Origin: Massilia rubra
GTDB taxonomy: Bacteria; Pseudomonadota; Gammaproteobacteria; Burkholderiales; Burkholderiaceae_D
Assembly: GCF_011682065.1 (NCBI RefSeq)
Contig: NZ_VUYU01000037.1
Span: forward strand, 1 to 61,680
Direction: 5' to 3'
DNA: 61,680 bases
The notes under the pieces are model-generated. The model was not told the DNA's origin. It made no database searches and worked only from the letters and a program-made list of their open reading frames with translations. A program made the translations under genes and the position numbers. Positions 1-15,500 of this stretch are shown piece by piece (positions within the stretch are counted from its first letter, which is position 1; the number at the start of each line of letters is the position of its first letter).

Positions 1-535
1 GCTTGCCCTCCCCGCCCCGTTCGAGGCGCTCGATCTCCTTGCGCGCGAAGCCGATGCTGTCGGCACTGCGCACGGGCATGGCCTCGCCCAGCACCTCGCT
101 CAGCGCCATCGGGACCTGCACGGTCGACTCGACCGGCGGCGCCAGCGGCTGGCGCAGCGCGATCGCGTCCAGCGCCAGCCACGGCGCGGGATCGACGCGC
201 GCTTGCGGCAACGCCGCTTGCGCCACCCCGCCCCGCACCAGCCAGTAAGCGCCGGCCGGAAGCGCTTTCAATTCGGCCGCCGTTAGCGGCGCGCTGCTGA
301 GCACTTCACCGACCCGGCACAGCGCCAGCGCGTCGAGCGCTTCCACATGCCGCCAGCGCGGCGCCGGCCAGGCCAGCAGATAGCCGCCCCCAGCCAGGAA
401 CAGCTGCGATCCAGCCTGCCAGTGTCCCAGCACGCGCCGGCGCGCCTCGGCCTCGCCCAGCAGTGGCAAGTCGAACCACAGCGCGCGTACTTCAAGGTAG
501 CCGCTCCACAGCGGTTGGCGAATCTCAATCGACAT
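1..535 (-). CDS. N-terminal part of a bpX6-like protein of the MoxR/vWA/beta-propeller system (3' end outside window)
   Basis: The frame is open from an ATG at 535 to the left edge (about 178 residues seen, no stop). The start is chosen because a GGAG Shine-Dalgarno lies a few bases upstream; an in-frame ATG at 547 would add four residues. The translated part begins MSIEIRQPLWSGYLEV and carries a WFDLPLLGEAEARRRVL stretch and an AWPAPRWRHVEAL stretch. This looks to me like the N-terminal region of the bpX6-type protein of MoxR/vWA/beta-propeller ternary systems, from memory only. It is the last visible gene of the leftward operon, 69 bases after the preceding stop. The rest of the protein cannot be seen, so domain content beyond residue 178 is unknown. 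Confidence 0.6.
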   Translation of the reverse strand, partial: MSIEIRQPLWSGYLEVRALWFDLPLLGEAEARRRVLGHWQAGSQLFLAGGGYLLAWPAPRWRHVEALDALALCRVGEVLSSAPLTAAELKALPAGAYWLVRGGVAQAALPQARVDPAPWLALDAIALRQPLAPPVESTVQVPMALSEVLGEAMPVRSADSIGFARKEIERLERGGEGK

Positions 536-604
536 CGGGAACTCCATTGGGAATGATGTGCGGCAGCCGGGCGTTCGGGCGTGCGAGTGAAGAATAATCG
601 GGCG

Positions 605-2383
605 TCATGCGGTTTCTTCCATGACAGGCAGGTAGTGCATCACCGTCCGTTCGTTGTCCAGCCGGCGCGCGAACAGTTCGTGGCTGCCGGTCAGCAGCCA
701 GCTCATGAACTGGCCGGTCGGCTCCAGCGTCAGGTGGGCAATCGGAAAATGGGCATGCACAATCGTGCGCCGCTGCGTCGCGCCGCGCAGCTCCACCGTG
801 CAGCGGTCGGGATTGATCACCAGCAGCGCCAGTTCGGCGCTGTCGGGCGCCATGCGGGCCACCCCGGTCACCGTGGCGCCGTCGCCGATCACCAGCGTGC
901 GCGAGACGCGGCCCTGCACCAGCAGCCAATCGGTCTGGCTGGTCTGCAGGGCCAGCAGATGCCCGGAGGCGAGGCTATGCACTTCGCCGAACAGCACGCG
1001 CAAGACGGGCCACTCGAACACCAGGTCCTCGACTGGATCCGGTGCGGCGGACTCGTACCGATACAGCCGGGTCACGCCATCGGCCACGCTGGCGTAGAGC
1101 AGCCGGTTCTGGTTCTGGGCCGCGCCGACGACGCCTGCCGCCAGCAGCGCGAAGCCGATCCCGCCAGCGCCGTCGTGGCGCGCGCGCCAGCTGACCAGGC
1201 GCGCGGCGCTATCGATCATCAAGACCTGGTCGAAGTCATTCTTGCGCAGGAAGAAAGTCGGCAGCCAGCCCCCCGACCCGCGCGCCGCCGCGAACTGCCC
1301 TGGTGGCGGGCGCACGCATTCGCAGCGTTCGAACACCCCGCCGAAATGCCGGAACATCAGCTTCCCGCCGCACACGGCCACGTCCGCCACCTTGTCGAAC
1401 CGCGGCCAGATGCCCAGCACGCTGCCGCGCTTTGGCACACGTTGACGCCGCGGCGCCGGGAGCCTGCCGGAGTGCCCCTCCATAAAAGCAAAAATCAGGG
1501 TGCCGCCGTCGGGCCGGCCTGTGACCCAACGCTCCCCGTAGTCTCCAAAGCGCGGCGCATGCTTGAGCGAGGGCGTATTGCGCCCGCCCATGCGGTTGCG
1601 AACCGGCTTGGCCGGCTCGCCGCCCGGATAGCGCAACAGGCGCACCGCGCTGGCCGGCGCCGGCAGCTCCAGCATCAGTTCGCGCGTCCTGCCCTGCTGC
1701 GTGATGCTCACTTGCAGGCCGTCCCCGAGCAGCGGCTGGACGATGGCGGCGCGCGCGCTTTCGCGCCGCATCGCCACGGCGTCGGGCGCGCCCACCTGCC
1801 ATACCTCGGCGTGCGGCTCGAGTCCGGCCAGTTCGCCATTCCAGCCATCGCGCGCGGCGCCGCCGGCACGCAGCGCCGTGCGCGCGTTCATCAGGCGCAT
1901 CAGCGCCGGCTGGCCGCATCCGGCATCGAGCGCACCGGGCGTCTGCAAGATCCCCCAACGGAAGCTGGCGCCTTCCTCGTGCGCGCGGCGCGCCAGCAGG
2001 ATGAACAGCGCCAGGTGTACCAGGCGCGGCTCGCCCAGTTGCGCCGGGCCAGCGTCGAACAGCGCCACGCAGATGCGCGCACGGCGCTCCACGCGCGGCT
2101 CGGGCGCCGAAAACAGCAGCTCGCCGGCGGCGGCGCGGCGCAAGAATTCATCGGGCGCGGCGTCCAGCACCGCCCATTCGCTCAGGAGCAGGCGATGGTA
2201 GGGGCCGCGCCGGGCAATGCCGCCCACCCCGACCGGCGTGCTGTCCGGCGCCGGCGCCACGCCCGCCATGCGGCCCACCAGCGGTTGCAGGCGCAGCAGC
2301 ATGGCGCCCAGCGGCGCGGCCAGTTCCGCCGGCAGCAGCGCCAGCCAGGCGCGCCACGGCGCCAGTTGCGCGGGCAGCTTCAT
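605..2383 (-). CDS. Tandem propeller paralogue A: vWA-like N-terminal module plus beta-propeller (chimeric copy)
   Basis: 592 aa from the ATG at 2383, which overlaps the stop of the upstream paralogue as ATGA. Residues 1-95 (start MKLPAQLAPWRAWL) are almost identical to paralogue B. A conserved LFDAGPAQLGEPR segment followed by ALFILLARRA and WGILQ resembles a von Willebrand A fold lacking the DxSxS metal site (inference). The C-terminal ~340 residues show repeated hydrophobic strand pairs (VLMIDSAARLVSW, LLYASVADGV) typical of propeller blades, plus the array signature PPPGQF...WLPTFF. The propeller half resembles paralogue E (shared PKRG..LG segment) more than B, so the gene appears mosaic. 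Family knowledge: propeller proteins of MoxR ternary systems are thought to be client or effector subunits; the biochemical role is unknown. Confidence 0.75.
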   Translation of the reverse strand: MKLPAQLAPWRAWLALLPAELAAPLGAMLLRLQPLVGRMAGVAPAPDSTPVGVGGIARRGPYHRLLLSEWAVLDAAPDEFLRRAAAGELLFSAPEPRVERRARICVALFDAGPAQLGEPRLVHLALFILLARRAHEEGASFRWGILQTPGALDAGCGQPALMRLMNARTALRAGGAARDGWNGELAGLEPHAEVWQVGAPDAVAMRRESARAAIVQPLLGDGLQVSITQQGRTRELMLELPAPASAVRLLRYPGGEPAKPVRNRMGGRNTPSLKHAPRFGDYGERWVTGRPDGGTLIFAFMEGHSGRLPAPRRQRVPKRGSVLGIWPRFDKVADVAVCGGKLMFRHFGGVFERCECVRPPPGQFAAARGSGGWLPTFFLRKNDFDQVLMIDSAARLVSWRARHDGAGGIGFALLAAGVVGAAQNQNRLLYASVADGVTRLYRYESAAPDPVEDLVFEWPVLRVLFGEVHSLASGHLLALQTSQTDWLLVQGRVSRTLVIGDGATVTGVARMAPDSAELALLVINPDRCTVELRGATQRRTIVHAHFPIAHLTLEPTGQFMSWLLTGSHELFARRLDNERTVMHYLPVMEETA

Positions 2384-4176
2384 GCGCTGTCCGCTTCGTG
2401 CGCCGGCCCCACCCGCAACAGCGGACCGCTGTCGTGCAAGTTCATGACGCATAATTCGTGCGTGCCGGTGAGCCAGCACAGCCGGTCGCTCGAGGGATCG
2501 AGCGTCGCCTGGGCGATCGGCGCCTCGCTGCGCACGATCACCCGCTTGTCGCTTTTTGAAAACAGCTCCAGCGTGAGCCGGTCGGCGGCGAGCACCACCA
2601 GGGCCGGACCGTAAGGCCGGCCACGCGTGACGCCGATCACCGTGGCGTCGTGCGGCACCAGGATCCGGGTACGCCGGTCGATATTCGGGTCGATCAGCCG
2701 CCATTCTCCAATAGTGAGCTGCACCGCGTACAGCCAGCCTTCCGGCGCGCTGCTCAAGCGCGCCTGCAGCGCCGCGAACGCGAATTCGCCGATTGTTTCC
2801 GGCTCGACGGTCCTGGCCTTCAAGGAATGGATCGTGGTGCGCTTGCCGTCGCTGCGGGCGTACAGCAGCGTGTTGGCGCTCTGGCTGGCGCCCACCACCT
2901 TGTCGGCCAGCGCATCGAAACGCACGTCCGGCGCATGCTTCTCGTTGCCGGCGCTCCAGCACACCAGTTGGCCGGCGAGATCGATCATGAACACGCGCGC
3001 GCCGATTCCCTTGGGAGAACGGTCGCTCAGGAAAAACGTCGGCAGCCAGCGGTTCTCGCCCGGCGGCGCGTTGAATTGCTCCGGCGGCGGCTGCGGCACG
3101 CTGCGCGGCGGGCCGAATGCCTGGCCCGGAAAACGCATGAGCGTCAGGTCGGTACCGTTGCCGACCACGCGCGCCAGCACTTTGCCGAACAAAACCACGC
3201 CCAGTTCGGTCGCATCCGGGGTCGGATGGGAGCGGCGCGGCTGGGCCGGGTCGGTGGATGCCGAGGTGGGCACGGCGTGCAGCACGCTGCCGCCGGCCTG
3301 CCTGGCCGCGACGATCCAGTCGCCGCTGACGGCGAAGCGCGGCGCAAACAGCAGCGAGGCGGTGTCGCCCGCGCTCACGTCGCTGCGCAGCGTGGGCGGC
3401 GGCGGCTTGAACGGATCACGCAGCAGGCCCGCGCCGACCTGCGGCGCGGGCAGCTCCAGCTGCAGGCGGCGCGTCTGCCGTGCCTGCGTGATGGCCACCT
3501 CCAGGCTGGCGTCGAACAGCGACTGTCCGATGGCGGCGTGGGCGCTGGCGCGCGCGGTGGCGACGGCGCCGGGGGCGCCCACTTGCCACACCTCGGCCTC
3601 GTCCCCCAGCCCGAGCCCGGCCAGGGCCGCATTCCAGCCGGCCAGGTGCTGCGCGCGGACGCGTTCGAGCGTGCGCGCGCCCATCAGGGAGCGCAGCGCA
3701 TCGCGCCCGCTGTTGGCGTGCAGCCGGTCCGGCCGCTGCAGGATGCCCCATTTGAAATCGGCCGCGCCATCCTGCGCACGGCGCGCCAGCAGGATGAACA
3801 GCGCCAGTTGCGCCAGGCGCGGTTCGCCCAGTTGCGCAGGACCCGCGTCGAACAGCGCCACGCAGGTGCGCGCACGGCGCCGCACGCGCGGCTCGGGCGC
3901 CGAAAACAGCAGTTCGCCAGCCGCCGCGCGGCGCAAGAATTCATCGGGCGCGGCGTCCAGCACCGCCCATTCGCTCAGGAGCAGCCGATGGTAGGGGCCG
4001 CGCCGGGCAATGCCGCCCACCCCGACCGGCGTGCTGTCCGGCGCCGGCGCCACGCCCGCCATGCGGCCCACCAGCGGTTGCAGGCGCAGCAGCATGGCGC
4101 CCAGCGGCGCGGCCCGTTCCGCCGGCAGCAGCGCCAGCCAGGCGCGCCACGGCGCCAGTTGCGCGGGCAGCTTCAT
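2380..4176 (-). CDS. Tandem propeller paralogue B: vWA-like N-terminal module plus beta-propeller
   Basis: 598 aa. ATG at 4176 overlaps the upstream stop (ATGA), and the gene's own stop overlaps the start of paralogue A, so translation is probably coupled across the array. The N-terminal half carries the shared LLSEWAVLDAAPDEF, LFDAGPAQLGEPR and EVWQVGAPGAV motifs. The C-terminal half is a predicted propeller with GGSVLHAV, VFMIDLAGQLVCW and LLYARSDGKRTTIHSL blades and the PPPEQF...WLPTFFL signature. Its propeller is closest to paralogue C, while its first ~130 residues are closest to A, both visible directly at DNA level. No signal peptide or membrane segment is visible, so it is probably cytoplasmic. 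Function inferred only from the linked MoxR ATPase. Confidence 0.77.
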   Translation of the reverse strand: MKLPAQLAPWRAWLALLPAERAAPLGAMLLRLQPLVGRMAGVAPAPDSTPVGVGGIARRGPYHRLLLSEWAVLDAAPDEFLRRAAAGELLFSAPEPRVRRRARTCVALFDAGPAQLGEPRLAQLALFILLARRAQDGAADFKWGILQRPDRLHANSGRDALRSLMGARTLERVRAQHLAGWNAALAGLGLGDEAEVWQVGAPGAVATARASAHAAIGQSLFDASLEVAITQARQTRRLQLELPAPQVGAGLLRDPFKPPPPTLRSDVSAGDTASLLFAPRFAVSGDWIVAARQAGGSVLHAVPTSASTDPAQPRRSHPTPDATELGVVLFGKVLARVVGNGTDLTLMRFPGQAFGPPRSVPQPPPEQFNAPPGENRWLPTFFLSDRSPKGIGARVFMIDLAGQLVCWSAGNEKHAPDVRFDALADKVVGASQSANTLLYARSDGKRTTIHSLKARTVEPETIGEFAFAALQARLSSAPEGWLYAVQLTIGEWRLIDPNIDRRTRILVPHDATVIGVTRGRPYGPALVVLAADRLTLELFSKSDKRVIVRSEAPIAQATLDPSSDRLCWLTGTHELCVMNLHDSGPLLRVGPAHEADSA

Positions 4177-5978
4177 GCGCCGTCCGCTTGGTGCGCCGGC
4201 CCCACCCGCAACAGCGGCGGGCCGCTGTGGTACACGTTCTTGACGCATAGTTCGTGCGCGCCGGTCAGCCAGCACAGCTGGCCGCTCGACGGATCGAGCG
4301 TCGCCTGGGCAATCGGCGCCGCGCTACGGACGATCACCCGCTTGTCACCTTTTGAAAACAGCTCCAGCGTGAGCCGGTCCGCCGCCAGCACCAGCAAGGC
4401 CGGCCCGTGTCCGGTCTGATGCACGGCACGCGTAACGCCAATCACCTTGGCGCCGTGCGGCACCAGGATCCGGGTGTGCCGGGTGGCTTGGCGGTCGATC
4501 AGCCGCCATTCCCCCACACTGAGCTGCATGGCATACAGCCAGCCGTCCTGCGTGCCGCCGAAACGCACCTGCAGCACGGCAAACTCATACTCGCCGATTG
4601 TCTCCGCCTGCACGGCCTTCGCCGCCAGCGAATGAATCGTAGTGTGCTTGCCGTCGCTGCGGGCGTACAGCAGCATGTTGTCGGTCTGGATGGCGCCCAC
4701 CACCTTGTCGGCCAGCGGGTCGAAACGCACCTCATGCATGGAATGCGCGATGCCGGTGCTCCAGCACACCAGTCGATTATCGACATCGATCATGAATACG
4801 CGCGCACCGACGCCGGTGGGAGAATGGTCGATCAGGAAAAACGTCGGCAGCCAGCGATCGAGCCCCGGGGGCACCCGGAAGTGCGCCAGCGGCGGGTGCG
4901 GCACGCTGCGCGGCGGGCCCAATACCATGCATGGAAAACGCATGAACGTCAGGTGTGTGCCGTTGCTGACCACGCGCGCCAGCATCTTGCCGAACAGGAC
5001 CACGCCCAGTTCGGTCGCATCCGGCGTCGGGTGATAGCGGCGCGGCTTGCCGGTCTTGGCGTACACCGAGTTGGGCACGGCGTGCAGCACGCTGCCGCCG
5101 GCCTGCCTGGCCGCGACGATCCAGTCGCCGCTGACGGCGAAGCGCGGCGCATACAGCAGCGAGACGGTGTCGTCCGCGCCGGTCTCGGTGCGCGGCCTGG
5201 GCGGCGCCGGCGGCTTGAACGGATCGCGCAGCAGGCCCGCGCCGACCTGCGGCGCGGGCAGTTCCAGCTGCAGGCGGCGCGTCTGCCGTCCCTGCGTAAT
5301 GGTCACTTCCAGGCTAGAGTCGAACAGCGACTGTCCAATGGCGGCGTGAGCGCTGGCGAGCCCGGTGGCGACGGCGCCGGGCGCGCCCACTTGCCACACC
5401 TCGGCCTCGTCCTCGAGCCCGGCCAGGATCCAATTCCATTCGTCCAGGTGCTGAGCGCCCACGCGCTCGAGCGTGCGCGCGGCCAGCAGGGAGCGCAGCG
5501 CGTCGCGCCCGCTGTTGTCGTGCAGCCGGTCCGGCTCCTGCAGGATGCCCCACTTAAAGTCGGCCGCGCCGTCCTGGGCACGGCGCGCCAGCAGGATGAA
5601 CAGCGCCAGTTGCGCCAGGCGCGGTTCGCCCAGTTGCGCCGGGCCGGCGTCGAACAGCGCCACGCAGATGTGCGCACGGCGCTGCACTTGCGGTTCGGGC
5701 GCCGAAAACAGCAGTTCGTTGGCCGCCGCGCGGCGGATGAATTCATCCGGCGCGGCGTCCAGCACCGCCCATTCGCTCAGTAACAGATGCTGGTACTGGC
5801 CGCGCCGCGCAATGCTGCCGGCGCCGGCCGGAATCGTGTCCGGACAGGCGGCCACGCCCGCCATGCGGCCCACCAGCGGCTGCAGGCGCAGCAGCATGGC
5901 GCCGAGCGGCGCGGCCAGATGCGCAGGCAGCAGCGCTAGCCAGGCGCTCCACGGCGCCAGTTGCGCGGGCAGCTTCAT
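4173..5978 (-). CDS. Tandem propeller paralogue C: vWA-like N-terminal module plus beta-propeller
   Basis: 601 aa from ATG 5978 (ATGA overlap with paralogue D's stop). It starts MKLPAQLAPWSAWL and carries all array motifs: LLSEWAVLDAAPDEF, LFDAGPAQLGEPR, ALFILLARRA, EVWQVGAPGAV, then propeller blades (GGSVLHAVPNSV, VFMIDVDNRLVCW, LLYARSDGKHTTIHSL, LCWLTGAHELCV) with RWLPTFFLIDHSPTG. Blade sequences are similar to B and D, suggesting these three propellers share a more recent ancestor than A and E. It is full length relative to A and B. Cytoplasmic location is inferred from the absence of a signal sequence. Specific role unknown; the operon position points to a subunit or client of the MoxR-driven complex. 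Confidence 0.77.
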   Translation of the reverse strand: MKLPAQLAPWSAWLALLPAHLAAPLGAMLLRLQPLVGRMAGVAACPDTIPAGAGSIARRGQYQHLLLSEWAVLDAAPDEFIRRAAANELLFSAPEPQVQRRAHICVALFDAGPAQLGEPRLAQLALFILLARRAQDGAADFKWGILQEPDRLHDNSGRDALRSLLAARTLERVGAQHLDEWNWILAGLEDEAEVWQVGAPGAVATGLASAHAAIGQSLFDSSLEVTITQGRQTRRLQLELPAPQVGAGLLRDPFKPPAPPRPRTETGADDTVSLLYAPRFAVSGDWIVAARQAGGSVLHAVPNSVYAKTGKPRRYHPTPDATELGVVLFGKMLARVVSNGTHLTFMRFPCMVLGPPRSVPHPPLAHFRVPPGLDRWLPTFFLIDHSPTGVGARVFMIDVDNRLVCWSTGIAHSMHEVRFDPLADKVVGAIQTDNMLLYARSDGKHTTIHSLAAKAVQAETIGEYEFAVLQVRFGGTQDGWLYAMQLSVGEWRLIDRQATRHTRILVPHGAKVIGVTRAVHQTGHGPALLVLAADRLTLELFSKGDKRVIVRSAAPIAQATLDPSSGQLCWLTGAHELCVKNVYHSGPPLLRVGPAHQADGA

Positions 5979-7144
5979 ACAGCTTCCCGGTCCGGCGCCG
6001 GTGCGACTGCCAACAACGTGCCGCCGCCAGAGAGGTCGATGACGCTCAATGCGTTGCGGTCGGTCAGCCAGCACAGGCGCCGGCCCGACCCATCGAGCAC
6101 GGCCTGGGCAATCGGCGCGTCGCTGCGCACCAGCACGCGGGTCTGGTCTTTCCAATGCAGTTCCAGCGTGCGCCGCTGCGCACCGAGCACCAGCAAGGAC
6201 GCCGCCTGCCTCCTGCCCATCAGCAGGCCGCCATGCAAGACAGCGATCACCCTGGCGCCTTCGGCAATCCGGATCCGGATGGGCAGCCTGGCATTGTGGT
6301 CAACCATCTGCCACGTCGTGTCGTCAATGCGCATGGCGTACAGCCAGGGCAAGTGCGCATGGCCGAACAGCACCTGCGCGGCATCGACGTCGAACGTGGC
6401 GATCATGGTTGGCTGTTGCGCCTTTGCCGCCAGGGTATGGATGGTGGTGCGCTGTCCATCGCTGCGGGCGTAGATCAGCAATTTCGGGGTTTGCGACGCG
6501 CCCACCACCTGGTCGGCCACCTCATCGAAACGCATGCCCGTTCCTTGCTTGTGCCCATAGGCGGTCCAGCACACCAGCTTGCGCTCCTGGTCGAGCATCA
6601 GCACCCGCGCGCCGGCGCCGGTGGGAGAGTGATCGATCAGGAAGAACGTCGGCAGCCAGCGGCCCTGGACCGACGGCGCGCGGAACTGCTGCGCCGGGGG
6701 CAGCGGCACGCTGCGCGGCTGGCCGCAGTCCATGCCGGGAAAACGTACGAAGGTCAGCTGCGCGCCATTGCTCACCACGCGCGCCAGTACCTTGCCGAAC
6801 AGGACCACGCCCAGTTCCGCCAGGTGCGGCGTGGCCCGGTAGCGGCGCTGCTTGCCGGGCTGGCCGAGCACGGAGTTCGCCACCGCGTGCAGCACGCTGC
6901 CGCCATCCGGCCTGGGCGCGACCAGCCAGTCGCCGCACAGGGCGAAGCGCGGCGCATCGGTCAGCAAGACGGTATCGCCGACGCTGGGGACCGGGCCGTG
7001 CCGGCGCGTCCGAACCGGCATGCGCGCAGCGCGCGGCAGTCCCGGGTCCAGCTGCGGCGCCGCCGGTTCGGCCGGCGCCAACACCGGCGCGGCGCCCGGT
7101 GGCGCCAGTTGCCGCGACAGCTTCGTGCGCAGCCAGCGCATCAT
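5975..7144 (-). CDS. Tandem propeller paralogue D: propeller-only copy, N-terminal module lost
   Basis: 389 aa. It starts at ATG 7144 (or the next codon, ATG 7141), overlapping the stop of paralogue E. Compared with A, B and C it lacks about 200 N-terminal residues, including the vWA-like module, but keeps the whole propeller (GGSVLHAVANSV, PPAQQF...RWLPTFFLIDHSPTG, VLMLDQERKLVCW, LIYARSDGQRTTIHTL, LCWLTDRNALSV). Residues 7-14 (TKLSRQLAP) align with the MKLPAQLAP start of the paralogues: the ancestral ATG reads ACG at 7124-7126, and an upstream MM start is used instead. The frame and both junction overlaps are intact, so it may still make a propeller-only protein rather than being dead. Confidence 0.72.
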   Translation of the reverse strand: MMRWLRTKLSRQLAPPGAAPVLAPAEPAAPQLDPGLPRAARMPVRTRRHGPVPSVGDTVLLTDAPRFALCGDWLVAPRPDGGSVLHAVANSVLGQPGKQRRYRATPHLAELGVVLFGKVLARVVSNGAQLTFVRFPGMDCGQPRSVPLPPAQQFRAPSVQGRWLPTFFLIDHSPTGAGARVLMLDQERKLVCWTAYGHKQGTGMRFDEVADQVVGASQTPKLLIYARSDGQRTTIHTLAAKAQQPTMIATFDVDAAQVLFGHAHLPWLYAMRIDDTTWQMVDHNARLPIRIRIAEGARVIAVLHGGLLMGRRQAASLLVLGAQRRTLELHWKDQTRVLVRSDAPIAQAVLDGSGRRLCWLTDRNALSVIDLSGGGTLLAVAPAPDREAV

Positions 7145-8811
7145 GGCTGCAGCTCATTGCCGAGCCATGCCGGATGGGCGCGCGTCAGCGGATGCGGCAG
7201 TGCGGCCGGGTCGGGAATCACGTGCAGCAGCAAGCCATCGTCATGCAGAGGGCGTACGCACAGCTCGTGGGTGTCGGCCAGCATCGAGCACAGCAACTGC
7301 GCGCGCAGGTCGGTCACCAGATGAATCATCGGCAGCTCGGTGGCCAGCACCAGTTGGCGCCGCGTGGCTGTGCACACGTGCGCATTCTTGCGGTCGGCGC
7401 TCAATACCAGCAGCGCCGGCTGCTTCGCATCGTTGGCCGATGCCCGCACCAGCGCGATGACGGTGGCGCCGTCATCGACATCGACCGTCTGCATGCTGGC
7501 GCCGGCCGAGAGGAGCCACTGCGTCTCGCTGATCTGCAAGGCCAGCCGGGTAAGGCTGATCATGCCGATGAATTCGCCGAACAGCACGCGCCTGGCGGCA
7601 AAGGGAAAACACAGATCGGCCGTTTGTCCGCGTTGGGTAATGGCGTGGATGGTCGTCCTGCCGTCCGCAATGCTGGCGTAGCCGAGCGTCTGGAAGCCCT
7701 GGGCCACGCTGGCGACATCACTCGCGACCACGCGAAACCGGACCTCGGGTTTGCCGTGCTCGGCAGACCATTCAAGCAAGCGGCCGGCGCCATCGAGCAT
7801 GAAGATGGTCTGCATCCGTCCATGAAACAAGGAGAACGTCGGCAGCCGTGCGCCACCACGTTGGGGAACCTGGAACTGCTCCGGGGGAGGAAGCGGGCAG
7901 GTACGGTTACGCGTGAACTCGCTGGCAAAGCCGTTGAAGATCATGGTCTCGCCACTGACCGCAACCTGGCCCAGGCCAGCGCCGCCACCGAACAGCAGCT
8001 GACCGAGCAGCCTGCCGCGTTTCGGCATGCGCCGCCGCACTGGCATGCCGGCATGCGGCGTGTGCGCGTGGTGCAAGGGAAACTCCAGCGTGCCGCCATC
8101 GAAGCGCGAGGTGAGCACTGCCGTATCCGTCAGCCCGAAAGATGGTGCGTGCGCGGGCGTGGGCGTGTCGCGCAGGCCGGTGCGCAAGCGGCCATTCTCG
8201 GCCAGCGCCGCGACCGGATAGCGCACCAGGCGGTCCACGATGCCGGCCTCCGGCAGCGCCAGGCGCAGCTGGTGTACGTCGCCCTCCCGGGCCAGCATCA
8301 CCTGCAGCGATGCGCCGTCGGGCGCCACGGTCACCGTCACCCGCACCGTCATGCGCGCCAGCGCGGCGCTGTCGGCGCCGCCGACCTGCCATAGTTCATC
8401 GGGCGCATCGCGCGAGGCCTGATCCTTGCTCCACCCATCGATGTCGGCCTGGCTGGGCGGCATGGGCGCGCGCATCGTCAGCAGCGCGCCCAGGGCATGC
8501 TCGTCGGCGCAGAAACGCGACCGGCCCGGCGCTTGCAGAACGCCCCAGCACAGATGCATCCTGGCCGCGCGCGCGCGCCGCGCCAGCAGGATGAACAGCG
8601 CCATGTGCGGCACGCGCGTGGTATCCGGCTGGCCCGGACCGGCGTCGAACATGGCCACGCACCGCATGCGCGGATACGTATCCGGCGCCAGCGGCGCCAG
8701 GTGGCCCAGCAGCGGTTGCAGGCGCGCCATCATCGCGCGCAGCGGATCGGCGAGCTCCGGCGGCAGGCTGTCCAGCCAGGGATCCCAGCGGTCCGGGAGC
8801 AAGGTCGTCAT
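7141..8811 (-). CDS. Tandem propeller paralogue E: shorter vWA-like N-terminal module plus beta-propeller
   Basis: 556 aa from ATG 8811, which overlaps the stop of the small gene upstream (ATGA); a longer frame from 8835 is less likely. It starts MTTLLPDRWDPWLDSLPPEL, clearly related to the other copies but lacking a ~50-residue insert (residues ~45-95 of A). It keeps MFDAGPGQ, ALFILLARRA and ELWQVGGADSAAL. The propeller includes GGTLEFPL, MPKRGRLLG, PPPEQFQVPQ, RLPTFSLFHG, IFMLDGAGRLLEW and GYASIADGRTTIHAI. It is the first propeller gene after the ATPase and the most divergent copy, so it may be the ancestral member (inference). Its propeller is the best visible match for that of paralogue A. 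Confidence 0.75.
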   Translation of the reverse strand: MTTLLPDRWDPWLDSLPPELADPLRAMMARLQPLLGHLAPLAPDTYPRMRCVAMFDAGPGQPDTTRVPHMALFILLARRARAARMHLCWGVLQAPGRSRFCADEHALGALLTMRAPMPPSQADIDGWSKDQASRDAPDELWQVGGADSAALARMTVRVTVTVAPDGASLQVMLAREGDVHQLRLALPEAGIVDRLVRYPVAALAENGRLRTGLRDTPTPAHAPSFGLTDTAVLTSRFDGGTLEFPLHHAHTPHAGMPVRRRMPKRGRLLGQLLFGGGAGLGQVAVSGETMIFNGFASEFTRNRTCPLPPPEQFQVPQRGGARLPTFSLFHGRMQTIFMLDGAGRLLEWSAEHGKPEVRFRVVASDVASVAQGFQTLGYASIADGRTTIHAITQRGQTADLCFPFAARRVLFGEFIGMISLTRLALQISETQWLLSAGASMQTVDVDDGATVIALVRASANDAKQPALLVLSADRKNAHVCTATRRQLVLATELPMIHLVTDLRAQLLCSMLADTHELCVRPLHDDGLLLHVIPDPAALPHPLTRAHPAWLGNELQP

Positions 8812-9233
8812 GCTGCCAGTTCCCGCGCCAGCCACGCCAGGCTGGCCCGGTCGAGCGCAATCGGCTGGCCCAGCGGCAGCACTTGTTCAGGCGCGTCCCA
8901 CAGCAAGAACGGCACGTGCGCGCCACGCCCGGCCAGGTTGGCCAGCACCAGGTCGAGCGGCAGTTGCGGCGCGACGTCGGTGGGCAGCCACAGCATGCGC
9001 TGGAGCGGGTCCGGGGCGCAGTAGCGCGCGCCGTCGACCCACGGCAGCGCGGCGGCGCGCCCGAGCAGCACCAGCATGTCGCGCGTGGCCACCGCCGTCA
9101 GCGCGGCCAGTGCCTCGTCATCGCAGCGCGCCAGGCGCGCCAGTACCTGGCGCATCGCGGCGCCTTGCGAGACTTGCCCGCGCGCTTCCGGCGCGCTGCC
9201 GGCGGGGCGCGCCATCCATCCCAGCGGGCTCAT
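8808..9233 (-). CDS. Small accessory protein of the MoxR/propeller operon
   Basis: 141 aa. The ATG at 9233 shares its A with the TAA stop of the MoxR gene (TAATG), and its stop overlaps the next start, so it is firmly embedded in the operon. It is rich in Ala and Leu, with no signal peptide or membrane segment. Features are an N-terminal MSPLGWMARPAGS, a central ARYCAPDPLQRMLWLPTD and a hydrophobic VPFLLWDAPEQVLPLGQPI. Short proteins between the ATPase and the vWA/propeller genes are typical of bpX ternary systems (possibly the bpX5-type family; I cannot confirm this without a profile search). It may be an adaptor between the ATPase and the propeller proteins; this is inference. Confidence 0.68.
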   Translation of the reverse strand: MSPLGWMARPAGSAPEARGQVSQGAAMRQVLARLARCDDEALAALTAVATRDMLVLLGRAAALPWVDGARYCAPDPLQRMLWLPTDVAPQLPLDLVLANLAGRGAHVPFLLWDAPEQVLPLGQPIALDRASLAWLARELAA

Positions 9234-10354
9234 TACGCGCCCTGCACGGCCACCACCAGCTGCGCGCGGCGCGCCGACAGTTCCGGCGGCAGGTTGTCCT
9301 TGCCGAAGTTGGCGTCGATTTCGCGCAGCAGCGCTTCCGCTGCGCCGCGGAAGGCGTCGCCACGGGCGCCGCCCAGCAACTGGTCGGCGCTTTCGGCCAG
9401 GCGCGCGATGCGTGCCAGCGGCTGCTGCACGGCCGTTTCGACCACCGCGTGCAGGAGCGGATGGCGCGCCTCGGCCAACAGCTCGCGCAGGGTTTCGCGC
9501 GCGCTTTGCTGGCCGGCGGCGCTGGTCACCACGTACACCAGCGGCCACAGGTCGGCGCGGGTGGCCACGCTGCGCCCGGCCAGCACGGCGGCCGCCGCGA
9601 TCAGTTGCTGGGCCTTGACGATGCGCCGGTCCGACAGGATGATCTGCGCCCCGCGCAGCTTGCGCACCGCCTGCGCCAGGTCGGCGCGAACGGGCTGCAT
9701 GTCCACCAGCGGCACCGCGCGGTGCAGGGCGTCGAGCGTGGCCATGTCGGCGCGCGGCGTGATGGCGCGCTGGCCGACCGCCCAGCCGCCGGCCAGCAGG
9801 TCTTCGAGGCGCGCGTCGGGCACCGCCTCGACGAACACGTGCAGCAAAAAGCGGTCGGCGAACGCGGCCAGGCTGTCGTCGTCGGGCAGCGCGTTGGAGG
9901 CGGCCACGCACAGCCGCAGCGGACAGGCGATATGCGTGTGGCCGCGGCGGAACTGGCGCTCGTTGAGAATGCCCAGCAGCGTGTTGAGGATCGCGGTCGA
10001 ACCGAGGAAGACTTCGTCCAGAAAGGCGATGTCCGCTTCCGGCAGCATGCCGGCGACGTCGGTTTCGACCAGCCCGTCGCGCAGCTTGCCCAGGTTGACC
10101 GCGCCGAACAGTTCGGACGGCTCGGTAAAGCGCCCCAGCAGATACTCGAAATAGCGCCCGCCCAGGCTTTGCGCCACGCGCCGCACCACGGCGCTCTTGG
10201 CGGTGCCGGGCGGGCCGATGACCAGCAGGTGTTCCTGCGCCACGGCGCCGAGGATCATCAGTTCGGCCAGGTGGTCGCGGTTGATCAGGCCATCGGCGGC
10301 TTCGCGGATGGCGTCGCGCAGGGTCGCTGCGGCTTGCTTGACTGGGGTATGCAT
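9233..10354 (-). CDS. MoxR-family AAA+ ATPase, RavA-like, heading the propeller operon
   Basis: 373 aa, first gene of the leftward operon. Walker A is GPPGTAKS (residues 47-54), Walker B IAFLDE (about 109-114, D113/E114), sensor-1 region AASNALPDDD and an arginine finger in AFADRFLLHV, so it should hydrolyse ATP. The RFTEPSELFG and ILNTLLGILNERQF segments are typical of the RavA branch of MoxR ATPases, which act as chaperone-like remodelling machines on vWA partners. Here the downstream partners are a 141-aa protein and five vWA-like/propeller proteins. ATG at 10354 chosen because it starts MHTPVKQAAATLRDAI, the usual N-terminal helix before the P-loop. No DNA-binding or membrane segment is seen. 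Confidence 0.9.
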   Translation of the reverse strand: MHTPVKQAAATLRDAIREAADGLINRDHLAELMILGAVAQEHLLVIGPPGTAKSAVVRRVAQSLGGRYFEYLLGRFTEPSELFGAVNLGKLRDGLVETDVAGMLPEADIAFLDEVFLGSTAILNTLLGILNERQFRRGHTHIACPLRLCVAASNALPDDDSLAAFADRFLLHVFVEAVPDARLEDLLAGGWAVGQRAITPRADMATLDALHRAVPLVDMQPVRADLAQAVRKLRGAQIILSDRRIVKAQQLIAAAAVLAGRSVATRADLWPLVYVVTSAAGQQSARETLRELLAEARHPLLHAVVETAVQQPLARIARLAESADQLLGGARGDAFRGAAEALLREIDANFGKDNLPPELSARRAQLVVAVQGA

Positions 10355-10431
10355 GGGCGTGTGCGGTGCGGCTGGGCTCGTGCACGCGTCGGTGCTGCAG
10401 GAACTTTTATTGCCAGGGTTTAAGAATTGTA

Positions 10432-10437
10432 ATTATA
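10432..10437 (-). promoter_or_regulatory. Possible -10 box for the MoxR/propeller operon
   Basis: On the minus strand this reads TATAAT, in an AT-rich island (10405-10470) unlike the surrounding GC-rich DNA, about 78 bases before the MoxR start codon. No good -35 hexamer is seen 16-18 bases further upstream, so a weak or activator-dependent promoter is the most that can be said. The interval 10355-10473 between moxR and the end of pbpC holds no gene. Confidence 0.35.
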
Positions 10438-10473
10438 TCAAACAGAATACGGCTGGCTTGTTGTATTAAGGCA

Positions 10474-12561
10474 CTAATTTGCCTTGCTGCCGCGCACGCT
10501 GAAGCGGGTCGCCGCGACCACCTTGTCGCCGGCGTCGACCAGCGCCAGTTCGTGCTCGCCGGCGACCGGTTGCCAGGCGTGGCTGGCCGCGCCCGCGCCC
10601 AGCGCCACCCCGTCGAGGCGCCAGGAAAGACCCTGCGCGCCCTGGGCGCGGAACACCACCCGCTCGCGGCCGGCCGGAATATCGGGGTCGAGCGCGATCA
10701 CGCCGTCCGGGCCAGGATACAGGATGGCCGCGCGGCGCTTCTCCGTGCCCAGCAAGGTCACCTGCGCGCTCTCGGTGCCGCGCACGAACCATTCGCGGCG
10801 CGGCGCTTCCAGGGCCGGCTGGTAGCTGACCGTTTGCTGCACCAGCCCTGGCGGCGCGGCCGGGGCGCGGCTGGGCAGCGCGCGGTGCAGGCGCTCCATC
10901 ACGTCGCGCCAGACCGGCGCGGCGCCGGTCACGCCCGACACATCCCACATCGGACTGCCGTCGAAATTGCCGACCCAGACCGCCACCGTGTATTTTTCTG
11001 AATAGCCGACGCACCAGTTGTCGCGCATGTCCTTGCTGGTGCCGGTCTTGACCGCGCTCCAGAACGCGGTGGCCAGTTCGTTGCGCAGTCCGAAGGTGAG
11101 GCTGCGCGCGGCCCGGTCCGACAAGATGTCGCCGACGATGAAGGCCGTCTTCGCATCGAGCACGCGGCTCTTCGCCTGCGCGGCGCGCGGCTGCAAGGTG
11201 ACGCTGCCACGCAGGCCGCCGTTGGCCAGCGTGCGGTAGGCGTTGGCCAGCTCCAGCAGCGAAACGTCGCCCGAGCCGAGCGCCAGCGAATAGCCGTAAA
11301 ACGCGGCCGGCTCGGACAGGCTGTCCATGCCGAGCGCGCGCAGGCGCGCATGAAAGCGCTCCAGGCCCGTCAACTGCAGCATGCGCACCGCCGGCACGTT
11401 GAGCGAACTGGCCAGGCTGGTGCGGGTACTGACCCAGCCCTTGAACTGGCGATCGTAATTCTGCGGCACGTAGGGACCGGCGGCGGTGGCGATCTCCAAC
11501 GGCGAATCGTCCTGCGGCGAGGCGGCCGTGATCCAGCCGCGCTCCATCGCCAGCTGGTACAGGAACGGTTTCAGGGTGGAGCCGGCCTGGCGCAGCGCCA
11601 GCACGCCATCGACTTCGCTGGCGCCGCCGTTGGCGACGTAGGCGACGATCTCGCCGCTGTCGTTATCGATGGCCACCAGCGCGCCCTGGGTCACGTTGCG
11701 CTCGCGCAGGGCTGCCAGGTGGGCGTGCAAGGTGTCGACGGCGTCGCGCTGGATGCCCGCGTCGAGCGTGCTGCGCACCTGGCGCGCGCTGCCTTTGAGC
11801 AAGCGCTGGGCCACGTGCGGCGCCTGCGTTGGCGCGGCGGCGGCGGCCGGCCGGCTCAAGGCGGCCGCCACGTCCCACTCGATGCCGGCGCACTTGGCCG
11901 CCGGGTTGATCTCCCTGGCCAGTGCGCAGGCGCGCTGCGCCACCACGCGCGGCGCCGCCGACGGCGCGCGCAGCAGGCTGGCCAGGATCGCCGATTCGGC
12001 CTGGTTCAATCCCGACGGCGCCTTGCCGAACAGGCCCTGCGAGGCCGCGCCGATGCCTTGCAGCTCGCCGCGAAACGGTACCAGGTTCAGGTAGGCCTCC
12101 ATGATCTGGGCCTTGCTCCAGCCGGCTTCGAGTTCGCGCGCGGCGCTGGCCTGGTCCCATTTCTGGCCCCAGCTGCGCCCGCCCGCGCCGGCGCGCAGGC
12201 GCTCGTCGACCAGCGCCGCGAGCTGCATGGTGATGGTCGAGGCGCCGCGCGCGCGGGTGCGCAGCAGGTTGTCCCAGGCGGCCTTGCCGAGCGCGCCCAC
12301 GTCCACGCCGTCGTGCTGCATGAAGCGCCGGTCTTCGGCCCGCACCAGCGCCAGGCGCATGGCCGGCGAAATGTCGGCCAGCCCCACCCATTGGGCGCGC
12401 CGCACCGCCATGTCGATCCGCAGCGAATCGATCGGCACGCCGTGGCGGTCGAGCAGTTGCGCGTCCGACGCGCGGTAAGCCGCCCTGACCTGTTCGGGCG
12501 TGGGCACGGCGTGCGCCGGCGCGGCCAACGCCAGCACAAGCGCCGCGGCAAGGCGGCGCAT
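10474..12561 (-). CDS. pbpC: Penicillin-binding protein 1C (bifunctional peptidoglycan glycosyltransferase/transpeptidase)
   Basis: 695 aa. The signal sequence is MRRLAAALVLALAAPAHA. The GT51 glycosyltransferase domain shows ALVRAEDRRFMQHDGVD (catalytic Glu), GASTITMQLA and AYLNLVPFRGELQGIG. The transpeptidase domain has SxxK in GSTLKPF, SxN in SLN and the KTGTS box. The C-terminal ~90 residues form the beta-rich extension characteristic of PbpC. It polymerises and crosslinks peptidoglycan at the outer face of the inner membrane. The ATG at 12561 shares a base with the stop of the alpha-2-macroglobulin gene (TGATG), the standard pairing for this gene. It is slightly shorter than the E. coli protein (about 770 aa), mainly at the N-terminus. 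Confidence 0.95.
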   Translation of the reverse strand: MRRLAAALVLALAAPAHAVPTPEQVRAAYRASDAQLLDRHGVPIDSLRIDMAVRRAQWVGLADISPAMRLALVRAEDRRFMQHDGVDVGALGKAAWDNLLRTRARGASTITMQLAALVDERLRAGAGGRSWGQKWDQASAARELEAGWSKAQIMEAYLNLVPFRGELQGIGAASQGLFGKAPSGLNQAESAILASLLRAPSAAPRVVAQRACALAREINPAAKCAGIEWDVAAALSRPAAAAAPTQAPHVAQRLLKGSARQVRSTLDAGIQRDAVDTLHAHLAALRERNVTQGALVAIDNDSGEIVAYVANGGASEVDGVLALRQAGSTLKPFLYQLAMERGWITAASPQDDSPLEIATAAGPYVPQNYDRQFKGWVSTRTSLASSLNVPAVRMLQLTGLERFHARLRALGMDSLSEPAAFYGYSLALGSGDVSLLELANAYRTLANGGLRGSVTLQPRAAQAKSRVLDAKTAFIVGDILSDRAARSLTFGLRNELATAFWSAVKTGTSKDMRDNWCVGYSEKYTVAVWVGNFDGSPMWDVSGVTGAAPVWRDVMERLHRALPSRAPAAPPGLVQQTVSYQPALEAPRREWFVRGTESAQVTLLGTEKRRAAILYPGPDGVIALDPDIPAGRERVVFRAQGAQGLSWRLDGVALGAGAASHAWQPVAGEHELALVDAGDKVVAATRFSVRGSKAN

Positions 12562-15500
12562 CAGCGCCCCACTTCCAGCGCCGCATTCGGCAGCTCGCCC
12601 GACAACTCGGGGCTGTACAGCGCTTCGACGCGGGTTGGCGGAAGGTTGAAGCGGCCCTGGTTATTCAGGCGCACGGTGTAGTCGATGCGCCATTTGCCTT
12701 TGGGGACGAAGTCGTAATACGCGCGGAAGGCTTCGAACGTGCGCTCCTCGAATACCGGCCGCAAGCCGCCGCCCTGGCCTTCGGCGCCGGGCAAGGTGAT
12801 GGCGTCGCGCCCCAAGCCGTTGCCGAGCAAGGTGGCGCTGGCCGGAATCGGATCGTCCAGCGCGACCCAGGTCATGTCGGTTTGCGCTTCCAGGTCGAGC
12901 CGCACGCGATACGTATCGCCGCGCGACCACGCGCCCTTGACCTTCTGTTCGATCGGCGTGATGGTCTTGACGATCTTGTAGCCGTTCGACAGCGGCGCCT
13001 TGAGTTCGAGCGCGGCCAGGCTTTGCACGATGGCCCACGGCTTGCCGCCACCGTTGTGCGAGAGGACCAGGTCTTGCTGGCCCACGCCCCACGGATGGTT
13101 GATCACCGAGACGCCGCGCGCATTCCAGTTGGTTTCCTTGACCGTGTTGCCAAGACCCGCGCTGCTGCTGCCGGTGACCGCCTCGCGTTCGAACTTGCGC
13201 GAGAATTTGTCCAGCGCCAGCACGCCCCAGGCGTTGGCCAGGGTCGAGCCCCAGCGCCCTTTTTGCTGGCGGCCCAGCGTGCCGCGCGCCAGGCGCCCCA
13301 TGTCTTCCTGCCAGGCGGCGTCGTCGATCACGGCCAGCAGCAGGCGGTTGGCGTTGGTGTCGGGCGAGGCCATGAGCCACCACCAGTTGTCGTTCGCCTC
13401 GGTGGAAAACGACAGGCCCGCGCCCTGCAGGTTCAGGCGCGCGCGCAGCACTTGCCGCACCTGCGCCAGTTGGGTGTCGCGCTGCGCCAGCGCCGGGCTG
13501 CGTTGCAGGATCAAGTACCAGTCGATGACGGCCGATGTGGGCCACAGGTTCGGCTCGATCGTGAACGATTCGAGCAGTTCCGGCGCCACCGGGCGCGTGC
13601 GCGACAGCGCTTCCAGCGCGGCGATCTTGCGCACCGCCGTGTCGACCCGGGCCACGCGCGCCGGGCGCGTGAGCTTGCCTTCGACGAACTGGCGCAAGCC
13701 GCCCTCCATGCGCTCTTTCAGTGCGGGGGCGAGCGGGAAGCCGGCTTCGGCGCTGACCGACAGCAGGTAGGCGGTCAGGCTGTCGCTGCCCTGGACCTGG
13801 GTCGGGTAGTACTTGAGCAAGCCATCGGCGTCGATCTGCGCCGGCAGGGATGCCGCCAGCTTGTCCCACAGGGCCGCGTCGCGCAGGGCCACGGCGCGCG
13901 ACGCATCCTGCTCGACGCCGCGGTACTGGTAGGCGCTCATGTAATCGCGCACGCCGGGCAGGCTTTCGCCAAGACGGGCGACCAGGGTGGCGCGCACCCC
14001 GCCCTGCCCCGCCAGGGCGCCGGCCGGGGCCTGCACCTTGATCGTTTGCGGCTGTTCGATGCGCACCAGGGTCGACTGCACGGTACGTACCGGCACCGCC
14101 GGCAGCACCTTCTGGCTGATGCGCAGCTTGTCGCTGGCGCCGGCGCTGCGCGCGTCGATGGTCCATGCGAGCGCGCTGGCGCCGGCCGGCACCTGCACAT
14201 CCCAGCCGGCTTCCTGCGCTTGCCCCGGCGCCAGGGCCAGGCTCTGGCGCGCCAGCACCTTGGGCGCGCCGCCGTCGGCCGCCACGCTGGCGCCGAAATC
14301 GACCGTGAGCGCGGCGTCGGTGGTGTTACGCAGGGTGAAGCCGGCGCGCAGGCGGTCGCCTTCGCGCACCAACGCGGGCAAGCCCGGCAGCACGATCAGG
14401 TCCTGGCTGCTGCGGATTTCGGTTTCGCCGGTGCCGAACATGCCGCTGCCGCCGCTGGCCACGGCCACGATGTGAAACGACGTGAGCGTGTCGTTGAGCG
14501 CAACCGGCACGCGCGCTTCGCCTTTGGCGTCGAGCACGATGCGCGCCTTCCAGAACAGCAGCGTATCGAACAGTTCGCGGCTGCCCTGGCCACCGCCGCC
14601 GCCATGCGGCGCCGCCTTGCGCCCGAAGTGGCGCTTGCCGATCACCTGCATCTGCGCGGTCGCGGTGTTTACCTGCAGCGCGCGTTCCTGCATCATGGCG
14701 CTCAACAGGCGCCAGCTCCGGTTCGGCATCAGTTCCAAGAGGCCGGCATCGACCGCCGCCAGCGCCACTTCGGTGCCGGCCGGCGCCGGCGAGCCGTCGG
14801 CGCGCGTGACTTTCACGGTCACGCTGGCGTTCTCGCGCACCTTGTAATCCTGTTTGTCGGTGCTGACCTTGACCTTCAATTCATGCGCGCTCCAGCCTAC
14901 CTGCACCGGCGCGATGCCCAGTTTGTAGGAAGGCTTACCCAGGTCGACCATGGCGGTCGGCTGCACCCCGGCCACGCGCCCGCGCACCACCAGCGCCGAC
15001 ACAAACGCGTTGGGCGCGTATTTGCCGAGCATGGGGATCGTAAATGTCGGCTCCTTGCCGTCCAAGCGGCGTACATAGGTGTCGAGAATGCCTTCGCGTT
15101 CGACCGTGATCAGCGCGGTGGCGTCGCGGAACGGGCTGCGCACCTGGAAGGTGGCGTCCTGGCCCGGCTCGTAGCGCTTGGCCGACGGCAGCAGGTCGAT
15201 GCGGTCGTTGTCGCCGGCCTGGAACCACCAGTCGCCGGCGCCGGCCACCCAGATGTCGCGCTGGGTGACGGCGACGCGCCGCTGGCTGTCGACGGCGCGC
15301 GCGCGCAGGATCAGGTTGCCATCCGCCGGGGTCCTGAGCTCGCAGCGCAGCAAGCCTTTGGCGTCGCTGCGACCCTGGCAGGCGGTGCCCACGCGCTTGA
15401 CTTCGCTGCTGTTTTCATACGCGTAAAAGCCGCCGATCAGGCGCCGCCGGTGCGTGTAGCTGGTGCGCTGGAACAGGTCGACATCGACCGCCACATCGGG

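Follow-up and report, generated by a model that had tools for sequence, protein, structure and literature searches.

A five-copy array of propeller genes in a predicted MoxR ternary system of Massilia rubra, with one mosaic copy

The window analysed here is a stretch of 61,680 nucleotides from Massilia rubra and corresponds to the complete contig C49 of a draft genome (7.57 Mb, 118 contigs). As the original prediction had it, a MoxR gene leads an operon, which lies on the minus strand, followed by the gene for a 141-aa protein and by five related genes, here called P1 to P5, that occupy 8811 to 608. The features are as follows, with the evidence used for each.

10355..10473, no strand: short intergenic region between a penicillin-binding protein gene (stop ending at 10474) and the bpMoxR start; putative operon promoter site
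9236..10354, minus: bpMoxR AAA+ ATPase, 373 aa (PF20030, 291.6 bits; translation)
8811..9233, minus: bpX5 protein, 141 aa, start overlapping the MoxR stop (PF19921, 121.8 bits, cut-off 27)
7144..8811, minus: P1 propeller protein, 556 aa (alignments; 80% identical orthologue in the relative G002)
5978..7144, minus: P2, nearly propeller-only, 389 aa (alignment; relatives P0057 at 94% and P0085 at 92%)
4176..5978, minus: P3, full-length with two modules, 601 aa
2383..4176, minus: P4, full-length, 598 aa; mosaic, with the first ~250 bases P5-like and the propeller P3-like
608..2383, minus: P5, full-length, 592 aa, orthologous to the second G002 copy (79%)
2..547, minus: bpX6 protein, first 182 aa (PF19922, 135.5 bits, cut-off 27)

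This gene set can be read directly from the DNA. The operon had been described as fully coupled, which holds at six of its seven gene junctions (ATGA at five, TAATG at one), where the starts from bpX5 to P5 each overlap the preceding stop, but not at the last, where there is a gap of 57 bases after the P5 stop before bpX6 starts at 547. The partner noticed at the left edge of the window proved to be bpX6, which runs off the end of contig C49; its remaining part lies on contig C76 (4,229 bases) at 78–2306 and is 86% identical to residues 192–944 of the G002 protein. Searching the genome with P3 returned six match rows, all at the operon locus (five genes, P1 in two pieces), and no further P gene elsewhere; the main rows had E values of 9.1e-48 or better, so the relatedness of P1 to P5 is not due to chance. 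At the P5 stop, the ATGA also opens a 27-codon frame (525–608) that ends within the bpX6 start region and whose end is similar to the C-terminal tail of P0013, a P5 relative; it may be what is left of a longer P5, or may act as a coupling leader.

The P-loop of the MoxR protein, GPPGTAKS, matches the GXXXTAKS form of the β-propeller ternary systems; we take this to be the Walker A motif, and FLDEVF the Walker B motif. The PF20030 cut-off of 27 bits is unspecific: among control genomes 12 of 14 pass it and among relatives 77 of 100, and the adjacent housekeeping-type MoxR itself scores 51.4 bits with this profile. System MoxRs were therefore told apart by a gap in score: ten listed ones reach 287–303 bits and the rest 70 or less, except for G088 at 207 bits, where the other proteins of our operon had no BLAST match on the 9.8 kb contig. 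The bpX5 profile exceeded its cut-off in none of the 14 control genomes. RavA proper was considered for the MoxR protein and rejected at 148.6 bits against the equivalog cut-off of 681 for NCBIfam PRK13531; the protein described earlier as RavA-like is bpMoxR. RavA-ViaA is similar in pairing a MoxR-clade ATPase with a partner, but differs in this score and in that the operon proteins here have no Pfam vWA match.

In the excerpted text of Kaur et al. 2020 (PMC7159879), ternary systems of this kind have three components: a MoxR whose P-loop is often of the GXXXTAKS form; a vWA protein in which a propeller strictly follows; and a protein that varies at its N-terminus and typically contains TPR and a propeller. 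The same text gives about four blades for the propellers, notes that in some vWA domains of this type one aspartate or both are missing, and treats a role in conflict as a prediction, the systems being called enigmatic because conventional effectors are missing. The present operon shares with them the GXXXTAKS bpMoxR, bpX5, a second component with a C-terminal β-propeller (the P proteins) and, in third place, a bpX6 protein with a variable N-terminus, TPR helical repeats and a propeller. Given Pfam matches for bpMoxR, bpX5 and bpX6, the original assignment is borne out, and on sequence grounds the operon is identified as the published MoxR–vWA–β-propeller ternary system, a predicted conflict system. 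The bpX2 family, the mark of another subtype, was absent from all 369 class genomes, a result that carries no information given that no control genome matched it either. No PADLOC system was found in the operon, where weak AAA matches were confined to MoxR (best E 0.0003), and P1–P5 had zero Pfam or PADLOC rows at E 0.01; NCBIfam at E 0.1 gave a single row, for P1, at E 0.037 and far below its cut-off. A match to an unrelated housekeeping family was also looked for, and no such family matched P1–P5; neither did any enzymatic or toxin family in Pfam or NCBIfam. Among plasmids, the MoxR search gave 80 records with MoxR-like matches, four of which cover 80% of the protein, all at less than 60% identity.

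On one side the operon is flanked by a gene with transglycosylase, transpeptidase and BiPBP_C domains (called PBP1C), accompanied by alpha-2-macroglobulin, and on the other by a DUF58 gene with its own MoxR. The same flanks are found in the relatives G002, G004, G009, G012 and G016, and in the source genome across contig ends; in G007, MoxR and the PBP1C gene lie some 100 kb apart. No defence-island neighbours were found at the operon flanks. In the close relative G014, the flanking neighbours (92% and 94% identical) are 2.0 kb apart with three DUF805 genes between them (L193, 2301–4400), and tblastn at E 0.01 with the eight operon proteins (bpX6 by its first 182 residues) gave no match there; this is an empty site for the operon.

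The structural model of P3 is mostly helical over residues 1–97 and α/β over 98–255, and is followed at ~264–594 by a propeller of 28 strands, which we read as seven modelled blades, as opposed to the roughly four given in the excerpted PMC7159879 text. The matches in structure searches were propellers, in rows covering the propeller part only, in agreement with the fold that had been predicted. The five genes had also been described as homologous two-module proteins; they are homologous and all five frames are open, but only P3–P5 have both modules. P2 lacks nearly the entire N-terminal module, and P1 lacks the residues matching P3 40–72 and 83–102 (the RRG..SEW and RRA..EL blocks), as does its G002 orthologue; these blocks carry many nearly invariant residues. 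A shared PPPxQF...LPTFF signature is likewise present in part, with LPTFF in four of the five proteins (LPTFS in P1) and a strict PPPxQF in P1, P4 and P5 but not in P2 (PPAQQF) or P3 (PPLAHF). In two other strains the P2 propeller is 94–97% identical and its short N-terminal stretch 53–83%, suggesting that a propeller without the N-terminal module is still of use.

Whether the P proteins contain a vWA domain was approached in several ways. Ahead of the propeller, the model follows a strand-helix-strand-helix-helix-strand order, and Asp110 is invariant among 32 sequences. No operon protein has a Pfam vWA match, and hhalign comparisons of P residues 1–256 and 98–256 with CoxE-type and VWA_2-type alignments (9 sequences kept from 16 loci and 22 from 30, respectively) gave probabilities of 0.1–0.2%, compared to 0.2–0.4% and 0.2–0.7% for the propeller and MoxR controls and 94.7% for the positive control of CoxE against VWA_2. 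Sequence searches of the PDB with the N-terminal and whole P alignments yielded no match at E 10 and E 1.

The two parts of the P proteins evolve at different rates. Mean entropy among 23 Massilia-type sequences was 0.67 for residues 1–97 and 1.17 for 98–255, against 1.24–2.24 for the propeller classes, and across all 120 sequences the N-terminal parts had 1.13 and 1.68 against 1.69–3.13. The N-terminal module evolves more slowly in single-copy systems too, so constraint accounts for part of this contrast. Propeller loops of the AB/CD face vary more than those of the BC/DA face (one-sided p of 0.018 in 120 sequences and 0.0097 in 23), a difference that we regard as suggestive given that this comparison was post hoc, chosen after the means had been seen, and that the assignment of strands to blades is our own.

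We surveyed how often the P gene is multiplied. Of 392 genomes in our sample of the family, 22 had a bpX5 match above the cut-off, and these 22 systems, annotated with iterated profiles, comprise 17 with one P, four with two (G002, G004, G009 and G012) and the source genome with five. A collection of named loci included 34 with a MoxR relative, 32 of them carrying P; removing six repeats of genomes already counted (L091–L094, L102 and L121) and leaving out L110, which ends after MoxR, and L124, where the P match is absent, added 26 loci with one P each, although for L100, which ends inside P, this is a lower bound. They are titled Xanthomonas, Lysobacter, Tahibacter, Comamonas, Myxococcus, Corallococcus, Archangium and others. 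In total, 43 of 48 systems have one P, four have two, all in the same genus as the source, and one has five, so that the run of five is as unusual as first supposed. All 22 family systems have the order MoxR, P, bpX6, as do 25 of the 26 named loci, the exception being L100, which ends inside P. Calls of bpX5 rely on Pfam, as our own profile drifted into out-of-frame MoxR sequence, and refer to the genomes, as distinct from the named loci.

This difference in copy number, a direct observation, extends to close relatives. MoxR is present at E 1e-60 in eight of 17 genomes of the genus; relatives whose MoxR is 89–96% identical have two P copies, and one at 84% has one. Many of the named relatives, whether by protein or by locus, are Massilia. 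Protein records of Massilia strains show larger sets, with copies counted in records that do not give gene order and strains distinguished by their source name and the length of the contig. A 30,408-base contig of Massilia genomosp. 1 encodes relatives of P1 (93%), P2 (92%), P4 (95%) and P5 (85%) together with P0022, making at least five copies; P0022 has no counterpart in the source genome and is closest, among the matches listed, to the single G016 copy (59% in the propeller). A 209,962-base contig of Massilia sp. CCM 8734 has relatives of P3 (96%), P2 (94%) and P5 (84%), thus at least three, and a further 14,396-base contig has at least three P relatives (P0006, P0010 and P0019). These numbers are minima, because 90% clusters may conceal members and the counts rest on the best 120 of 160 rows. 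The content of the array thus differs in a near strain, and an array of five copies fixed in all relatives, which had been raised as a possibility, is not what was found. No such P array, and no experiment on the β-propeller subtype, was found in our search of the literature on MoxR–propeller ternary systems, with subscription papers and supplements mostly outside its reach.

In a tree of the propellers, P2–P4 group together (94/89), while G002_a is the partner of P1 and G002_b that of P5 (100/100 each); the N-terminal tree still places P4 with P3 (100/98). The DNA of P4 and P5, however, differs at just two positions in the first 251 bases, with identity starting at 99% in the first two segments compared and falling through 95% and then 91% in the two after these to 71% at codon 113; most of the propeller is at 44–58%. 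Their synonymous divergence (pS) is 0.09 over codons 1–125, as against 0.15 for the orthologues P5 and G002_b, and rises to 0.46–0.51 in the propeller. Of the sites variable among P3, P4, P5 and G002_b, 70 fall in the first 375 aligned bases, and P4 matches P5 at 54 of them and P3 at 24; of the 569 from base 780 on, it matches P3 at 403 and P5 at 96. This agreement, P5-like early and P3-like late, makes P4 a mosaic, and gene conversion across approximately the first 80–110 codons, a part of the N-terminal module, accounts for the pattern best. A run test flags P4/P5 and P3/P4 (0/2000 each), but because it also flags the orthologues P5/G002_b (1/2000), it is unspecific when taken alone.

A second kind of exchange was observed in a relative. 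The genomes G004, G009 and G012 are about equidistant in three flanking genes (pS 0.09–0.23), and so are residues 1–255 of their b copies (pS 0.19–0.26). The G012_b propeller, in contrast, has a pS of 0.47–0.50 and a pN of 0.29 to those of G004_b and G009_b, which differ from each other by 0.14. Between G004_b and G012_b, pS is 0.20–0.21 over residues 1–255 and 0.50 in the propeller, with 0.12, 0.12 and 0.22 in the three flanking genes. By these distances, G012_b has had its propeller replaced while its N-terminal part is still the orthologous one; a propeller of the G012_b type, 97% identical, occurs in a Massilia sp. P8910 record. Separately, the first P copies at L038 and L040 (copy a of G004 and of G012) have a propeller pS of 0.10, compared to 0.12, 0.12 and 0.22 in the flanking genes and to 0.26, far more, in their own residues 126–255, as if these propellers had been recently transferred. 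A reverse transcriptase near the array was also sought; the genome has five RVT_1 matches (on contigs C107, C64, C37, C41 and C118), with none on C49, C76 or C48. We consider it likely that the variety of P genes was made by recombination and not by reverse transcription.

We estimated ω to evaluate selection on the propeller. By halves, orthologous array propellers gave 0.41–0.67 for G000/G002 and 0.14–0.59 for four pairs among G004, G009 and G012, compared to 0.00–0.45 in eight pairs of single-copy propellers; array propellers therefore change faster on average, although the ranges overlap. MoxR of G000/G002 gave about 0.15. The propeller halves of the paralogues P4 and P5 reached 1.08 and 0.93, values that are weak owing to high divergence. 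No orthologue pair among those computed had ω above 1 in the propeller, which lends no support to positive (diversifying) selection; of the selection for diversity proposed at the outset, what stands is the signs of diversification by recombination.

The likeliest explanation for these results, to which we give a probability of slightly under one half (about 0.47), is that a single ATPase serves several interchangeable adaptors whose propellers are directed at different targets. Through each of the five P adaptors, a target or trigger of its own would reach one common ATPase and bpX6 partner: P3–P5 may dock on the MoxR ring by their conserved N-terminal module, ATP hydrolysis could remodel the P–bpX6 assembly, perhaps through the propeller–propeller contact proposed in the excerpted parts of PMC7159879, and the invader or self molecules recognised would differ from propeller to propeller. 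Having lost N-terminal parts, P1 and P2 would likely be partners or decoys with the usual docking gone. The ATPase, bpX5 and bpX6 are single while P is multiplied and its propeller exchanged, pointing to the propeller as the likely specificity part, and the natural copies make this specificity testable. Several points count against the adaptor reading, however: a simple adaptor would require parts that are missing from P1 and P2, no effector domain is recognised in the operon proteins, and the segment shared by P4 and P5 covers roughly the first 80–110 codons and not the whole module. On the same side stand the absence of a vWA profile match, the ω values below 1 among orthologues, the slower N-terminal module of single-copy systems, and a neighbourhood in which neither a PADLOC system nor defence-island genes were found.

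Two other readings remain serious. One may postulate that the five P proteins are fixed, distinct subunits of a larger complex, assembled or remodelled by MoxR and serving physiology instead of forming a repertoire, much as RavA-ViaA has a physiological role. We think this unlikely, although near strains do keep P1 (93%), P2 (92–94%), P3 (96%), P4 (95%) and P5 (84–85%) as separate lineages, the start/stop overlaps from bpX5 to P5 favour matched amounts, and the operon sits between the same neighbours in five relatives and, split over contigs, in the source genome; a fixed set of subunits is hard to reconcile with two copies in relatives whose MoxR is 89–96% identical and one in the 84% relative, with the empty site in G014 and with the replaced propeller in G012. 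Neutral birth and death, in which tandem duplication under relaxed selection leaves extra copies that provide dosage at most, gene conversion is a by-product and P1 and P2 are decaying, seems to us rather improbable. The parts missing from P1 and P2, the tendency of array ω to exceed that of single-copy propellers, with overlap, and copy numbers of one, two and five across relatives all agree with it, but five frames remain open, ω is below 1 among orthologues, and a P2 whose propeller is kept at 94–97% when its N-terminal stretch is not can hardly be plain decay. That each P copy is a variable effector released by a shared ATPase, as the label effector-like had implied, is very improbable: other ternary systems do have vWA-fused effectors in the excerpted texts of PMC7159879 and PMC8195603, but the variable part here is a β-propeller, which is a fold for binding, matches to enzymatic or toxin families were absent, and the former text calls the systems enigmatic for want of conventional effectors; the P proteins are better read as an amplified component in its vWA–propeller position.

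Taking the adaptor reading further, the array may be a recombination-made bacterial receptor repertoire, in which one AAA+ engine reads a cassette-like set of genes whose ATPase-coupling ends are kept alike partly by gene conversion and whose propeller heads are gained, lost or swapped between strains, resembling antigen receptors but with no dedicated mutator; we hold this extension to be somewhat doubtful. If it is right, paralogue recombination would join reverse-transcriptase mutagenesis as a route by which sensors of bacterial conflict systems are diversified. In the excerpted text of PMC10907252, the VMAP ternary systems are likewise predicted to act in conflict, are centred on MoxR and have vWA-linked targets that are diversified, but their diversity is produced by a reverse transcriptase (DGR), whereas paralogue recombination would be responsible here. 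Relative to the systems in the excerpts of PMC7159879, the present one differs in having five propeller components per MoxR, against one in 43 of our 48 systems. Animal TRADD-N/WD40 expansions combine a shared N-terminal signalling part with C-terminal propellers, and their authors, in the sections of PMC8195603 available, infer recombination; this is an analogy only.

A further observation concerns Archangium lansinium (L104). There, two genes lie between MoxR and the propeller gene, at 13476–14375 and 12228–13457; one matches TsiV (VRR-NUC type VI immunity) at 147 bits, and its neighbour appears VRR-NUC-like by eye, with no Pfam match, such that a toxin–immunity pair may have entered the operon. 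Frames similar to this pair occur in A. violaceum (L108).
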